From Pseudohongiella sp. O18 (GTDB lineage Bacteria > Pseudomonadota > Gammaproteobacteria > Pseudomonadales > Pseudohongiellaceae): a DNA stretch of 64,000 nucleotides. The stretch is from positions 1,307,445 through 1,371,444 of the forward strand of contig NZ_JAJSAR010000002.1 in assembly GCF_021729085.1 (NCBI RefSeq), given 5' to 3'. Both the position numbers and the translations under genes were made by a program. The notes under the pieces were generated by a model, which worked only from the letters and a program-made list of their open reading frames with translations, made no database searches and had not been told where the DNA came from. Below, one piece after another: positions 1 through 30,080 of the stretch. Numbering within the stretch: the stretch's first letter is position 1; each line of letters opens with the position of its first letter.

Positions 1-1782
1 CAGGAAGGGGTTGTAGAACATACAACCATCTTTGCCCTGGTTATTACTGGTCAGAGCCAGCGAGAGACTTTCACGCGTGGTGAAGACGAAGCCCGGGAAA
101 AATGTCTGCGTGTAGCCTTTATAATAGGCCTGGTTACTGACATTCCACATGGTCGGTATAGCGCCGCCGAAGGGGCCTGGCTCATCACGGAAGTTGAAAG
201 TGGATATACCATTCGGCGTACAGTTGGGGCCGCCCAGGCCATTCACAGCCAACTCGGCACGATCACGCTGGAAAGTCTGATACTCCTGTTCGAAGCTGGT
301 GCCGCTCCAGGAATAGCTGACGTCGTAGTTGAAGCGCCGGTCGTTCATGGCATAAAACTCGCCTTTCACACCAGCCTGCACACCCAGCGTATGGGTCTCA
401 GTGATGTTGGAATTGCCGCCCATGCGTGGCGTGTTGCCGCGTTGCACGCTGGCGTAGAACGGCACATTCAGACCGCCATTGGCCAGGGCGTTGGGTGCAT
501 TCGGGATGCTGGTCGGACGTGTCAGGCCAGCTTTCCCTGCATAGTAGCCAAGCTCTGCCGTCATACCGATGGCATATCCACCAAACGCCGGATTGCCGGC
601 ATGAGAGCCCGGGGCCGCCAGAAAGACTGTCGGACCACGCGACCCATTAGCACCTGAGTCAGAACGCTCAATGGTGGTATCGGAATACTGGAAGAATGAA
701 TAGAACTCTGCTTTGTCACTGAACACATGGTTAAAGGCACCGGCAATGCTGTCACGCTCGGAACCAACCTGCAGGAACTCCCAGTCGTCAGTAAACTCGC
801 GGCAGGTGCCACTGTTTGAGCCGCGACGATCCGTTCGCGTACCGGTAAAGAAGGGAGTGCCATCAGCAGAAGTCAGGTCATCGCACAGGGGGTCGGTAAG
901 CACAGTATTGGAGCTGCCGCCCTCGGCGATGTTGCGCTGGGTGATTGCCTGGTTCAGGTAAGCGGTATTGATGCGCGAACCAAATGCAGGGTTGGCCATG
1001 GTGGCACTGATGTTGCCAGCCATTGAACCGACCACACCTGTGTATTCGACGTGCTCATTGTAGAAACGTCCATATTTTACTGGCACTGGATCACGTCGGA
1101 AGACTTCGCCTGAAATCACAAAGTGGGTATCGCCGCTATCACTGGCCCAACCCCAGATCGCACTACCCGTGCGGTCCTGACGATTGGTGGCGCTGTCCAG
1201 AGCTTGCACATCACCGTAAATCTCCAGGCCTTCGAACTCGGTTCGCATGATGACGTTGACCACACCTGCTACGGCATCCGAACCGTAGAGTGCCGAGCCA
1301 CCATCAGTCAGAACCTCTACCCGCTCAACCATGACCAGCGGGATCGTATTGATATCGACGAACTCGCCACCGCTGCGGGTAACGGTAGCTGCGGATACCT
1401 GGCGCTTGCCGTTGACCAGTGTCAGTGTTGAGTTTTCACCCAGGTTGCGCAGGTTGACGTTGGCGGTACCGGACAGTGCCTGACCCTCGCCCGCGCCTTC
1501 GTTGGTAAATGAACCTGAGTTAATCTCCAGATTCTTGATGACATCCCAGACCTGGGCCGCGCCCTGGGCTTCGATGGAGGTACGATCTACAGTGGTGACG
1601 GGGGAAGGCGCATCGAGTGGGCTGCCACGCAGGTAGGAGCCGGTGACAATAACTTCTTCTACTTCGACTTCGCTATTCTGGCTGTTCTGGGTCTGAGCCA
1701 TGACAGGCAGGCAGGTAGCCCCCGACACGACACCGATCATTAAAGCCAGGGACTTCTTACGGAAACCAGGCGATTTTGCCAT
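1..1782 (-). CDS. TonB-dependent outer-membrane receptor, N-terminal half (cut by window edge)
   Basis: First 594 codons of a large TonB-dependent receptor, which imports a substrate across the outer membrane using TonB energy. The ATG at 1782 follows an AGGGAGA ribosome site. Residues 1-29 form a signal peptide ending VMA. A TonB-box-like EEVIVTGS and a plug domain follow, with the motifs NLRNLGENSTLTL and LTDGGSALYGSDAVAG, then barrel sequence. The frame is open to base 1, where it reads GCMFYNPFL, a motif also found in mid-barrel of the two receptors at 12796-20075. The missing C-terminus is therefore a window artefact, not a pseudogene. It is a clear paralogue of those two, with shared SYLRGSPLDAPSPV after the TonB box. 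The substrate is unknown. Confidence 0.93.
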   Translation of the reverse strand, partial: MAKSPGFRKKSLALMIGVVSGATCLPVMAQTQNSQNSEVEVEEVIVTGSYLRGSPLDAPSPVTTVDRTSIEAQGAAQVWDVIKNLEINSGSFTNEGAGEGQALSGTANVNLRNLGENSTLTLVNGKRQVSAATVTRSGGEFVDINTIPLVMVERVEVLTDGGSALYGSDAVAGVVNVIMRTEFEGLEIYGDVQALDSATNRQDRTGSAIWGWASDSGDTHFVISGEVFRRDPVPVKYGRFYNEHVEYTGVVGSMAGNISATMANPAFGSRINTAYLNQAITQRNIAEGGSSNTVLTDPLCDDLTSADGTPFFTGTRTDRRGSNSGTCREFTDDWEFLQVGSERDSIAGAFNHVFSDKAEFYSFFQYSDTTIERSDSGANGSRGPTVFLAAPGSHAGNPAFGGYAIGMTAELGYYAGKAGLTRPTSIPNAPNALANGGLNVPFYASVQRGNTPRMGGNSNITETHTLGVQAGVKGEFYAMNDRRFNYDVSYSWSGTSFEQEYQTFQRDRAELAVNGLGGPNCTPNGISTFNFRDEPGPFGGAIPTMWNVSNQAYYKGYTQTFFPGFVFTTRESLSLALTSNNQGKDGCMFYNPFL

Positions 1783-1917
1783 GGAATATCTCCCTGTGAT
1801 TCTTATTTTGGGAGGCGTGACTGCTGCTTAACGCCGCTTTAGCTCTAGCAATTCGGCACTACTACTGCACCATAACGGCGCCGGAAAATAGAGAGAATTA
1901 CGTCAAACTGCGGTCGA

Positions 1918-1936
1918 TTGTAGCTAGCAGCTACAA
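1918..1936. promoter_or_regulatory. Perfect 8-bp inverted repeat, possible operator
   Basis: TTGTAGCT and AGCTACAA are perfect inverted arms separated by AGC, centred about 145 bp upstream of the edge receptor ATG. Spacing and symmetry fit a dimeric regulator site, but no known regulator consensus is matched. Confidence 0.3.
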
Positions 1937-1958
1937 GAAATAGAAGAGATTTATAGCA

Positions 1959-1988
1959 TTGACGTTAAAAATTCATGAGTTCTATAAA
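1959..1988 (+). promoter_or_regulatory. Possible sigma70 promoter
   Basis: TTGACG, an 18-bp spacer and TATAAA. It would give a leader of about 180 nt before the secreted protein at 2174. The region is AT-rich, so a chance match is possible. Confidence 0.3.
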
Positions 1989-2173
1989 AAGTCTTTGCAC
2001 GTCACGACCTTAGGATACTAAGTAACTGTTTTAAAAGATTAAAATAGTCGACCTGGCTGTGGTTGAGATCGATAGCTTTACAGGCGAGACCGGTGCATGG
2101 GCGTCACATACCGATTTACCGGGTTTTGGGCTATGATGCGCGTTTCGAAAATAGAGCCCGAGAACCATCGATC

Positions 2174-2650
2174 ATGAAGCGAAGTCTCATTTCATCTGCG
2201 CTGGCCGCCAGCCTGGTCGCTTTAACAGCGCTGCAAACTGCCAGCGCACAATTGTTTCCACGCGGTAATGGATTGGCACTGGCCGACGTTGACCGCTTTG
2301 ACATGTATGTCCAGATTCTGGACTGGGTTGATATCGAGCAGGATCAAACAGCTTTCCGCCTGTCGACACTGAAAGAATTTGAGGAGCAGCTTGCTGAGGC
2401 GGGCATTCGTCGCCAGGCAGCCAGCCGCGACTATCTGGTCTGCGCCCTGCAGGCCCGCCAGCAGGACAACGAAGTGACCTACTCGACCTCACTGGAATAC
2501 TGGCAACTGGAGTCAACGGGCCCCCACAGGCTGATCTGGCAACAGAGTCGACTGGCCGACAGCCCGGCGCGACGATTCGATGCAGAGCGCGTGGCGGCAG
2601 ACTGTGCCGGTGTGCTCATCGCTGAATGGCAGCGCTGGAACAACACCTGA
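2174..2650 (+). CDS. Small secreted protein of unknown function
   Basis: A 158-residue protein with a signal peptide (residues 1-25, cleavage after TASA). The mature part contains two cysteines (in YLVCALQ and AADCAGV) that could form a disulfide, and an RLIWQQSRL segment. I recognise no family. The ATG at 2174 was preferred over an upstream in-frame start at 2063 because it begins directly with the signal peptide. The gene converges on the RND pump, with its stop 17 bp from the pump's stop. Function unknown; probably periplasmic. Confidence 0.7.
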   Translation: MKRSLISSALAASLVALTALQTASAQLFPRGNGLALADVDRFDMYVQILDWVDIEQDQTAFRLSTLKEFEEQLAEAGIRRQAASRDYLVCALQARQQDNEVTYSTSLEYWQLESTGPHRLIWQQSRLADSPARRFDAERVAADCAGVLIAEWQRWNNT

Positions 2651-2667
2651 CGCACAGATGACTCTGC

Positions 2668-5600
2668 CTATTGACCCGCCCGGGCCTGCTCGGGCGAGTA
2701 CCCCAGCACTTTCTCGCGATAGGCGCGCCGCCCGTAGTACCAGCGGGTCAGATCATCCAGGATCAGATAAAGACACGGGATCAGGAACAGTGTCAGCATG
2801 GTGCCGAAAGCAATACCGAATGCCAGCGACAGTGTCATGGGCTTGACCAGCTGAGCCTGCATACTGGTTTCAAACATGATGGGCAACAGACCAAAGAAGG
2901 TCGTCAGTGTCGTCAGCAGGATGGCACGGAAGCGACTGGTTCCAGCATCCAGCACAGCCTGAATGATTGATTGACCATCACGCCGTCCCCGGTTCACAAA
3001 GTCCACCATGATAAGACTGTCGTTGACAATCACACCCGCCAGCGCAACCAGACCAAACAGTGACATCATGCTGACCGTCACGTTAAACACCAGGTGTCCA
3101 ATCACCGCACCGATGACACCAAACGGAATCACTGACATAACGATCAGGGGCTGCACATAAGAGCGCAATGGAATCGCCAGTAGCGCAAAAATCAGGAACA
3201 TTGCCGCCATGAAGAACAAAGCTATACGCTGAATCAACTCAGCCTGTTCCTCACTGGCACCACCCAGCCCAAAGTTGACCTGCGGATAGGTGCGCAACAA
3301 CTCAGGGATGTAATTACTCATGACATCGCGAATGATGGTCCCGGACTGGGCGACTTCAGGATCGACATCAGCGGTAACTGTCACTGTGCGTTCGCGGTCG
3401 ATTCGCGTAATGGTGGCAAAACCCTGTCCCACATCCACTTCCGCCACTTCACTGAACGGCACTTCCGTGCCGTCCTGGGTACGAATCCGCATGTTCTCCA
3501 GGTTCGCGATTGATGTACGCTCCGCTTCCGGATAGCGCACCATGACTTTAAGCTCGTCACGGCCACGTAGCAGGCGCTGAGCCTCCTCGCCGTAAAACGC
3601 CTGCCGCACCTGCGTACCCATGGTATTGGCGGTCAGCCCGAGCTGCTCCGCACCGGGTTTGATCTGCAGTTTAATTTCATTGCCGCCGCGGCTATAGGAA
3701 TTGTTGACGTCAAACACACCGGCGTATTCAGATAGTTTTTGCTGAAGTGCATTGGCTGCCAGCTCCAGCTGTTCATAGTCGGTGCCGGTCAGCCGCAGAT
3801 TGATGGGGGTACCACCACCAGCACTGGTACTGGAGAAGAAACGAATCTCCTGAGCGCCAGGTATCTCACCTACCCGCTCACGCCAGCGCTGCTCAATTTC
3901 CATCGGCGACACAGAGCGTTCTTCCGCCTTTGTCAGTTCAACCAGCAGTGAGCCGCCGAGATCGCCGCTGGTAAACACAGCGACGTGATCCACTGGCCGC
4001 TCGCCATCAAACTCGTCGTTGAGCCCAAGTATGCCGCTTTCCATTCGCGTCAGTGCGTCATTACGCGCCTGGAACGAGGCACCCTCATTCATGGTCAGCT
4101 CAGCCTGAATGAAGTCACTGGGGATATTGGGGAAAAACTCAAACCGCACAACACCGCCAGCAATCATTCCGCCGCTGATGATCAGCAGGCCAAGAAAACC
4201 AGCCACCGCTACATAGCGAGCTGCAAGCACTTTCTCCAAAGCCGGACGGTAGACATTACTGATGAACCGGGACAGGCCGGCTGCCACCCACTCCTGATAT
4301 CGCTCCAGCCAGCTGCGTTTACTCTTCGGTTTGCGACCGATCTTTGAATGCGCAAGGTGGGCCGGCAGAATCAGCTTGGATTCAATCAGTGAAAACAGCA
4401 GGCACAGGATCACTACCATGCCAATCGCTTCAAAAAATGGAGCGACCTGCCCCCCAACCAGCAGCATGGGCGCGAATGCTGCGATGGTCGTCAGAACACC
4501 AAAAGTGGCAGGAACAGCCACCCGCTTGACCCCTGCCACTACATTGTCCAGAGAGTGTCCGTTCTCCGACACCTCGGAATGCACACTCTCGGCGGTAATG
4601 ATGGCATCGTCAACAACGATACCCAGTACCAGTATCAGCCCGAACAGACTGATCATGTTGATATCGACCGGGAAAGGCCCGAGCGGCATCAACCAGATGG
4701 CGCCAAAAAACGCCACTGGAATACCCACCATTACCCACAAGGCTATGTTCAGGCGCAGGAAGGTAGTCAGTACCAGAAACACCAGTACGGCACCCATCAC
4801 CAGATTGCCCAGCATCATATTGAGCTGGCCTTTCAGGTAAAAGGCATTGCTGCCCCAGGTATCGATGTTGACGCCGGGTGGGAAGGTCCCTTCGTTGCGT
4901 TCAATGTACTCCATCACCGCGCGCTCTACTTCGAGTACGCTCTGCTCGGGCGTGACCATGACCTGAATGTTCAGGGCACGCTCACCATCGAAGCGCGAAA
5001 AGTTTTCTGTCTCAACAAAGCCGTCCGTCACAGTGGCAATATCGCGCACCAGCAGGCGGCTGCCGTCCGGGTTGGTCCGCAGCACGATCTCGCCGAACTC
5101 CCGTCCGGTATATGCCTGCTGCTGGGTACGCAACTGAATGCGTCCGTTTTCGGTGCGAATGGCGCCGCCCGGCACATCGATTGACCCGGCGCGAACTGCC
5201 GAAGCGACCTGCGCCAGCGTCAGACCATATTCCCGCAGCGTATGTTCAGAGACCTCGATTGCTATTTCATAGTCGCGATCACCCTGTATCTGTGCCTGAC
5301 TGACCTCTGGCAAAAGCAGGACATCGTCGCGAATCGATTGTGTCAGCGTTTTCAACGCGCGATCGCCCAGGTCGCCGGATACGGAAATCTGCAGCACTGG
5401 CTGCACCATTTCAATTTCGCGGACGAATGGGCGTTCGACACCATTGGGGAAAGTCGAGATTCGATCAATGCGGCTTTTGACTTCGTTCAGCAGCTCGGTC
5501 ACGTCGTAACCACTGGCGACCTCAATCGAGACATTACCCGATCCTTCCCGGGCCGTGGAGCGCAGTCGATTTACGCCGCTGAGATCCTGGATTGCCTCTT

Positions 5601-28350: not shown

Positions 28351-29172
28351 CTACGCAGCGGAGTCATCCCCGGCATCATTGCGATTGGCACGTTTAACGT
28401 GATCATCAATGTAGGTCAGCACGCCGCGCAGTATGTTGATTTCCATGGCGTCCGGACGTATCCGGCCAAACAGCCTGCGCATACGTGGCATCAGCAAGCG
28501 CGGGTTTTTGGGATCGTGAAAGTCCATGTCAGTCAGCACCTGCTCAAGGTGGGCATAGAACAGTTCCAACTGGTGGTTATCTGCCTTGGGCACATCCCAG
28601 TACTCATCTTCAACGCTGGCATCGTAAAAATCACCACTGTGAACCGGTTGTGCCGCCTCACCTGCCGACAGCGCATCCAGCATGGCAACCCGCACCTCAT
28701 AACAGATCACCACCACAGCCGCCGCCAGATTGAGCGAGCTGTACTCTTCATTGGCGGGAATCTGTACGTGATAATGGCAGAGCTGCAGCTCTTCGTTATT
28801 CAGACCGCTGTCTTCACGGCCAAACACCAGCGCAACTTTGTTGCGACCGGCGTCTGCTGCCACATGATTCGCGCACTGTCGGGGGCTGAGCACTGGCCAT
28901 GGCATCCGGCGTGACCGGGCACTGGCGCCAATCACCAGCCCGCAATCCGCAACAGCCGTCTGCAGATCGGGAAACACCTCTGCCCTATCCAGCACGTCAG
29001 TGGCCGATGCCGCACGCCAGGTTGCGGTATCACTGGGATAGTCCCTGGGATCGACCAGGCGCAGGTTGGGAATCCCCATATTTTTCAAGGCGCGCGCGGC
29101 GGCGCCGATGTTGCCGGGATGTGAGGTATTAACCAGCACGACCTGGATATTGGAAAATTCGGGCAGGCTCAA
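28351..29172 (-). CDS. trmJ: tRNA (Cm32/Um32) 2'-O-methyltransferase TrmJ
   Basis: A 273-residue SPOUT methyltransferase that uses S-adenosylmethionine to methylate the 2'-O of residue 32 in tRNA anticodon loops. Seen: IQVVLVNTSHPGNIGAAARA at the N-terminus, and the knot motifs LVFGREDSGLNNEEL and IPANEEYSSLNLAAAV. The C-terminal extension (about 165-273) is also typical. It is divergent from suhB, an arrangement also seen in enterobacteria. An extended -10 lies about 40 bp upstream. Confidence 0.94.
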   Translation of the reverse strand: MSLPEFSNIQVVLVNTSHPGNIGAAARALKNMGIPNLRLVDPRDYPSDTATWRAASATDVLDRAEVFPDLQTAVADCGLVIGASARSRRMPWPVLSPRQCANHVAADAGRNKVALVFGREDSGLNNEELQLCHYHVQIPANEEYSSLNLAAAVVVICYEVRVAMLDALSAGEAAQPVHSGDFYDASVEDEYWDVPKADNHQLELFYAHLEQVLTDMDFHDPKNPRLLMPRMRRLFGRIRPDAMEINILRGVLTYIDDHVKRANRNDAGDDSAA

Positions 29173-29213
29173 AGATCTCTCCGCGTCCGTTGATGTTTAT
29201 AAAATGGGTCCGG

Positions 29214-29222
29214 ATTATAACA
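29214..29222 (-). promoter_or_regulatory. Extended -10 promoter of trmJ
   Basis: On the minus strand, TG-T-TATAAT, a perfect extended -10, about 42 bp upstream of the trmJ ATG. No good -35 is present, which extended -10 promoters tolerate. Confidence 0.4.
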
Positions 29223-29297
29223 GCCTGATAACAAACTATCTGCGTTGCTCTCGTTTTGCTATCATTGGCGGCTGATTCACTCCCGATTGTCGAGACT

Positions 29298-30080
29298 ATG
29301 CACCCAGTTATCAATATTGCCCTCCGCGCCGCCCGCAGCGCCGCCGAACAAATCGCCCATGTCAGCGACCGCCTGGATCGCGTCAATGTTGTTGAAGACC
29401 ATGGCGGCAACCTGGTGACCAGCATGGACCTGGATGCGGAGCGAACCATCCTCTATCACCTGCGCAAGGCTTACCCTGATTTCAGTGTCGAATCGCGCAT
29501 CAGTGGTTATAGCGAGGGTGCAGATCGTGCCAACACCTGGCTGATAGACCCTATCGTGGGCAACCGTAATTTCTATCGTGGCGTAGGAGCATTCTGCGTT
29601 TCCGTAGCGCTGAAAACCAGCAAGGGCATTACTCAGGGCGTACTCGTCAATCCGGCTACCAATCAGGAATTCACAGCCAGCAAGGGCGACGGTGCCCAGC
29701 TGAATGCGACACGTATCCGGGTTGGCAAGGCCAGTGAGCTTGAGCAGTCCATGATCGCGCTGGATGGTGACCCTCAGGGCGAGACCGTCATCATGCAGAA
29801 ACTCCTGGCCAGCCTGCAGGCGCTGCCGGCGTGGGTTCAGATCAGCGGATGTCCAGCTCTGGACATGGCGCATGTCGCATCCGGACGACTGGATGCTGCC
29901 TGGTGCGCACAGCAGCCGGAAACCGCCATTGCTGCCGCCCGCCTGATTCTTCTTGAGTCTGGTGCTCTGCTGGGAGATCCTCAGGGCAATCCGCAGGTAC
30001 AACAGAGCAAAGAGCTGCTTTTCAGCAATCCCAAATGCTTCAAACAACTCCTGAAAATACGCCAGACCCTGACAAGCTAA
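29298..30080 (+). CDS. suhB: SuhB homologue lacking inositol-phosphatase catalytic residues
   Basis: A 260-residue SuhB homologue. It aligns without gaps to E. coli SuhB (recalled) over the first 92 residues, starting MHPVINIALRAAR. E. coli metal and active-site residues are replaced: Glu67 is Arg67, Asp87 is Val87 (DPLDGTTNF becomes DPIVGNRNF), and the WD pair near 212 reads ET. Asp84 is kept. It should therefore be dead as an inositol monophosphatase. SuhB has a second role as a Nus factor for rRNA antitermination that does not need catalysis, so this is probably a pseudoenzyme kept for that role. ATG 29298 was chosen by family N-terminus. Divergent from trmJ. Confidence 0.88.
   Translation: MHPVINIALRAARSAAEQIAHVSDRLDRVNVVEDHGGNLVTSMDLDAERTILYHLRKAYPDFSVESRISGYSEGADRANTWLIDPIVGNRNFYRGVGAFCVSVALKTSKGITQGVLVNPATNQEFTASKGDGAQLNATRIRVGKASELEQSMIALDGDPQGETVIMQKLLASLQALPAWVQISGCPALDMAHVASGRLDAAWCAQQPETAIAAARLILLESGALLGDPQGNPQVQQSKELLFSNPKCFKQLLKIRQTLTS

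Follow-up and report, generated by a model that had tools for sequence, protein, structure and literature searches.

SuhB of Pseudohongiella, a likely natural pseudoenzyme that keeps the IMPase fold and the NusA-binding helix

SuhB ordinarily has two jobs: it is a phosphatase of sugar phosphates, and it assists in the production of ribosomal RNA. The catalytic site usually persists in SuhB proteins, although the transcription role of the E. coli protein needs no activity. In E. coli, IMPase activity is dispensable for relief of the effects of suhB mutants, and the double substitution KL251/254AA lowers the affinity for NusA-AR2 more than 1000-fold and reduces antitermination (PMC6614801). The closest solved relative of the protein studied here is Pseudomonas aeruginosa SuhB (8wdq, 8wip; 37% identity over 263 columns), which differs from it in keeping the whole catalytic site, with inositol-1-phosphate bound according to the entry title. 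Our literature search, limited to CC-licensed PMC papers, found no report of a SuhB pseudoenzyme.

The window analysed here is a stretch of 64,000 nucleotides of Pseudohongiella sp. O18, whose assembly comprises 3.47 Mb in 4 contigs. Its relevant features, in window positions, are the following.

28351..29172, minus strand: trmJ, SpoU-type methylase gene, divergent neighbour of suhB; 273 aa from the listed TTG start
29173..29297, no strand: trmJ/suhB intergenic region, presumed from its position only to hold divergent promoters
29298..30080, plus strand: suhB, encoding a degenerate SuhB (pseudo-IMPase); 260 aa plus stop, PF00459 match
29427..29429, plus strand: codon of D44, kept according to the alignment; D in 90/101 and E in 11/101 members of the degenerate clade
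29496..29501, plus strand: codons 67-68, metal ligands lost; E67 to R (CGC), E68 to I (ATC)
29547..29558, plus strand: codons 84-87; D84 kept (GAC), D87 to V (GTG), metal ligand lost
29922..29927, plus strand: codons 209-210, aligned with E. coli W211-D212, now T-A; catalytic pair lost
30042..30053, plus strand: codons 249-252, equivalent to E. coli K251 to L254, with K and L kept; NusA-AR2 contact per PMC6614801

Divergent trmJ adjoins suhB in 118 of the 121 loci of the window's family and marks the window gene as the orthologous suhB locus. The same linkage exists in E. coli. The window protein, a full-length member of PF00459, scored 121.6 bits against that model (gathering threshold 27), a value that measures homology and not activity. 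With the NCBIfam equivalog NF008027 it reached 142.7 bits, below the 332-bit cut-off; as this model is named inositol-1-monophosphatase, it gauges the E. coli-type enzyme rather than the Nus role. An Rfam scan of the window gave no matches.

Aligned with E. coli SuhB, whose sequence came from PDB chains, the window protein carries R67, I68 and V87 and retains D84, exactly the loss of metal ligands claimed in the original prediction. That claim had been based on a gap-free alignment, which does not hold, as the window protein is about two residues shorter in the stretch from position 156 to 165. Once this two-residue gap is placed, W211-D212 aligns with T209-A210 and not with the ET pair named earlier, and thus D212, the fourth metal ligand, is also lost. 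Only D84 is left among E67, E68, D84, D87 and D212; judged by these residues, the protein does not qualify as a catalytic IMPase. We dropped the T90 to R change from the list of losses because R is already there in intact relatives of the same family. Sequencing error does not account for the changes, since the same loss occurs in a 99% identical relative (L034 of genome G008), and all 15 genomes of Pseudohongiella share it, including that of the cultured P. nitratireducens SCS-49. No second intact SuhB is present at the locus.

Surveying SuhB in 121 genomes from eight genera, we found the loss to be conserved in a clade, as the pseudoenzyme claim had called for. The protein is degenerate in 101/101 sequences of five genera, namely g1 (Pseudohongiella), g4, g5, g6 and g7, and intact in 20/20 sequences of the sister genera g2, g3 and g8. 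All 101 degenerate proteins lack E67, E68, D87 and D212, save for one stray D at position 212. They form one clade beside the intact genera in the SuhB tree (support 99) as well as in the TrmJ tree (98), and a single loss inside the family is the simplest history. The intact proteins of g2, g3 and g8 resemble the window protein in their trmJ-linked locus, in 36-46% identity, in keeping K251 and in having already lost R184; unlike it, they have intact EE, DPIDGTRNF and WD motifs, and they are not accompanied by a second IMPase of the P clade.

The degenerate gene is under purifying selection. Median dN/dS of suhB was 0.046 in g1, 0.12 in g5 and 0.25 in the faster-evolving g4, and 0.127 in the intact g8. 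Position 67 is Arg in 101/101 degenerate proteins with all six Arg codons in use; hence Arg67 itself is selected, being invariant though written with six codons. Positions 68, 87, 211 and 212 drift within the clade (entropies of about 1.9-3.4 bits), while P85 and G186 do not vary at all and D44 and D84 hardly do. Nearly all degenerate family members (e.g. L004) also carry a near-invariant RLDR motif at residues 25-28, where E. coli has TPDA, and this motif is a possible RNA or protein contact.

The fold is kept, as had been claimed. An AF2 model built from 23 homologues, including distant PF00459 homologues from viral contigs, reached a pLDDT of 90.5 and a pTM of 0.90 and matched E. coli SuhB (6ib7; Z 36.2, 2.1 Å, 255 residues), as well as SuhB as seen in complex with NusA-AR2 (6ib8; Z 35.5) and within the rrn antitermination complex (6tqn; Z 35.6). 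From 16 close relatives alone, the overall AF2 model was poor (pLDDT 76.8, TM 0.49). Several IMG/VR viral contigs (L325-L338), the longest of 194 kb, carry genes for PF00459-type proteins whose best segment is 24-35% identical to SuhB; these are probably large-phage phosphatases resembling CysQ or IMPase. Compared with the E. coli structures (2qfl, 6ib7, 6ib8, 6tqn/6tqo), the window protein shares the full-length fold and the K251/L254 helix, and its genome encodes a two-repeat NusA; it differs in lacking E67, E68, D87, W211 and D212, in carrying Arg at 67 and in its replaced R184.

R184 belongs to the dimer core of E. coli SuhB, where R184I abolishes complementation, and the window protein has I at this position. 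Because intact relatives in the family are also without R184 (F, M or I instead), its replacement is not tied to the catalytic loss, and we rejected R184I as a diagnostic sign of a lost dimer or RNA polymerase role. The expectation that both NusA and dimer contacts were retained thus stood in part: K251 is kept and the L254 position is mostly hydrophobic, but the dimer-core R184 has become I.

Residues K249 and L252 of the window protein correspond to E. coli K251 and L254. Loss of the NusA contact, which would have spoken against a Nus role, was not observed, as position 251 is K or R in 100/101 degenerate proteins of the family. Outside the family, 32/34 genomes with degenerate SuhB also have K or R there, as do 70/72 intact SuhB proteins; the L254 position is Ser or Thr in 18/101 degenerate proteins. 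In the second IMPases, position 251 is K in only 2/50 cases, though the catalytic site is kept there. The residue patterns of degenerate SuhB and second IMPase therefore separate catalysis and NusA contact in opposite ways, a double dissociation.

The window genome encodes NusB and a 495-aa NusA whose C-terminal part has two repeats. It also carries boxA-like GTTCTTTAA in the rrn leader and spacer, a matter of sequence likeness only, as these sites are at least one base off the E. coli TGCTCTTTAACA and single such matches arise by chance. On contig C4 (L322 3245-3238 (-), 1347-1336 (-)), the leader has boxA-like GGTTCTTTAAAAGA soon after promoter-like TATAATACGCGGCC, and the 16S-23S spacer carries GTTCTTTAACAATCG. 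Leader GATTAAGTAATAGAGGTG on the same contig is complementary to CACCTCTATTACTTAATC directly after 16S, forming an RNase III-type stem.

Three PF00459 genes are present in the window genome: suhB, a CysQ fusion (L002) and a second IMPase. The last, at C1:139879-140703, has an intact site and is the separate catalytic enzyme that had been suggested as worth looking for elsewhere in the genome. It belongs to the PF00459 family like the window SuhB, to which it is about 32% identical, and it scores higher against that model and bears a SuhB-like RRxGSAAL motif; it differs in having 5/5 catalytic positions, E and R at the K251 and L254 positions, and no trmJ linkage. CysQ likewise shares PF00459, but it is a member of an intact nucleotidase family (TIGR01331, above cut-off) and not SuhB. 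An APS-kinase-like (CysC-like) domain precedes it at the N-terminus of the same 482-aa frame (L002 C2:1010275-1013979, ORF 1441-2889 (-)). In the tree, the extra IMPases form one clade (support 100) apart from the trmJ-linked SuhB proteins, with one outlier (L260), and all but one copy keep the catalytic site.

Among family genomes at least 90% complete, which share ancestry and are thus not independent, the second IMPase is present in 71/75 of those whose SuhB is degenerate and in 0/18 of those where it is intact. Fisher p values, which take no account of this ancestry, were not counted in favour of an independent association. Its gaps in g4 fit assembly incompleteness (10 missing, 9.8 expected). 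In g8, one genome whose SuhB is intact encodes an additional IMPase (G057:C202:1750-2523) that shares about 40% identity with the Pseudohongiella second IMPase; contamination or a separate gain could explain it. Outside the family, the second IMPase occurs in 21/33 degenerate and 0/16 intact genomes, and f26 and genus g80 of f40 have a different non-CysQ IMPase. The PF00459 survey detected no P-type IMPase in G183, G330, G279, G317 and three f38 genomes; the f38 members, G279 and G317 have CysQ-like copies only. As a separate observation, the degenerate SuhB is the sole PF00459 protein of G183 (f7; SuhB in L206) and G330 (f39; L217), whose genomes are 99-100% complete. In the window's family, catalysis may have become redundant once the second IMPase was gained. 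Because some degenerate genomes are without one, it is not a general requirement for loss, and we rejected the notion that it always accompanies the loss.

The original prediction spoke of this lineage, to which the case is not unique: eight more family codes of the order include degenerate SuhB. Every sampled member of f6, f7, f20, f26, f37, f38 and f39 has a degenerate trmJ-linked protein; within f40, genus g80 is degenerate and the other genera are intact, as are the remaining sampled families. As the sampling of outside families was steered by weak matches, these counts give no frequency for the order. In this wider survey the five catalytic positions behave as all or none: intact SuhB proteins always have 5/5, no degenerate one has more than 2/5, and the loss pattern is therefore not a product of chance. 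The TrmJ tree, in which several branches are long, needs 6 changes, of which strong branch support makes at least 3 unavoidable, and it rejects one common origin for all the degenerate SuhB proteins (AU p 0.0195). Thus the loss is recurrent: the site was lost in the Pseudohongiella group and at least two more times in related groups. The SuhB tree itself joins f6, f7, f20, f26, f37, f38 and f39 (support 99), which may reflect long branches.

Arg67 recurs in f26, f37, f39, G229 and G335, a pattern in the sequences that possibly represents convergence. One speculative extension, to which we give a lower chance than its opposite, is that in many lineages of the order SuhB, a Mg2+-dependent phosphatase and Nus factor in one, repeatedly became a Nus subunit that needs no metal and has no other task. 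An Arg at the former Mg2+ ligand would lock the pocket; this E67R change is seen in f26, f37, f39 and the window's clade, as well as in individual members of f38 and f6. If so, rRNA synthesis would be uncoupled from Mg2+, Li+ or inositol phosphate control acting on catalytic SuhB.

Other explanations of the degenerate protein were weighed against these data. Relaxed constraint, that is a decaying pseudogene or sequencing error, could be read from four changed catalytic positions and the raised dN/dS in g4. The frame is nevertheless open in almost every genome (an in-frame TAG turns up once, in G110) with low dN/dS, and the same changes recur in independent assemblies and an isolate and have been kept over the age of several genera; this explanation is already refuted by clade-wide conservation and retains almost no credence. 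Just as hard to believe is that the second IMPase took over the Nus role and left the trmJ-linked gene as a relic. Its RRxGSAAL motif and higher PF00459 score would fit such a takeover, but it lacks K251/L254, sits in its own clade and is absent from some degenerate genomes.

The co-occurrence with a second IMPase in the family, together with the dimeric nature of IMPases, would suit a degenerate SuhB that is a regulatory pseudo-subunit, or heterodimer partner, of that enzyme and not mainly a Nus factor. We hold this to be quite improbable, as f38 members, G279, G317, G183 and G330 do without such an IMPase and the conserved K251 helix is unneeded for such a role. Somewhat less remote, though still unlikely, is a pocket with a new ligand-binding or catalytic role, such as anion or nucleotide sensing via Arg67, in a neofunctionalised enzyme or sensor. 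The invariance of R67 across six codons and of P85 and G186, the near-invariance of D44 and D84 and the recurrence of Arg67 elsewhere speak for it. The free variation at positions 68, 87, 211 and 212 is a misfit for a specific ligand site, and both R67 and D84 are missing from other degenerate families.

The best reading is that SuhB has been retained for rRNA antitermination only, its catalysis having been lost when dispensable. Most likely, the window SuhB is a natural pseudoenzyme that keeps the IMPase fold and the NusA-AR2-binding C-terminal helix and serves as a Nus factor only, and we are fairly confident of this. The earlier interpretation that the Nus role is under selection while catalysis is gone is supported, and nothing named in advance as contradicting it was encountered. 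We infer that the protein does not hydrolyse inositol phosphate and that it acts in antitermination; selection would then act on the Nus role alone. Loss of activity and a sole Nus function have a good probability when sequence, selection, predicted fold and genome context are taken together. In the proposed mechanism, catalysis would have been dropped as dispensable or as covered by the second IMPase, and Arg67, beside D84 and D44, may replace the lost Mg2+ electrostatically. The degenerate SuhB would bind NusA and nascent rRNA bearing boxA, aid the joining of NusB/S10 to RNA polymerase and delay Rho-dependent termination.

Because the catalytic site is lost while the fold and the known NusA contact are kept, the two jobs of SuhB appear to have been separated in nature in these marine bacteria. 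Many "inositol monophosphatase" annotations in these Gammaproteobacteria are probably not enzymes. Degenerate SuhB proteins offer ready-made separation-of-function material for structures of the rRNA antitermination complex, and at least three natural losses, together with intact sister genera, make the question of why the site usually persists testable by comparison and gene exchange.
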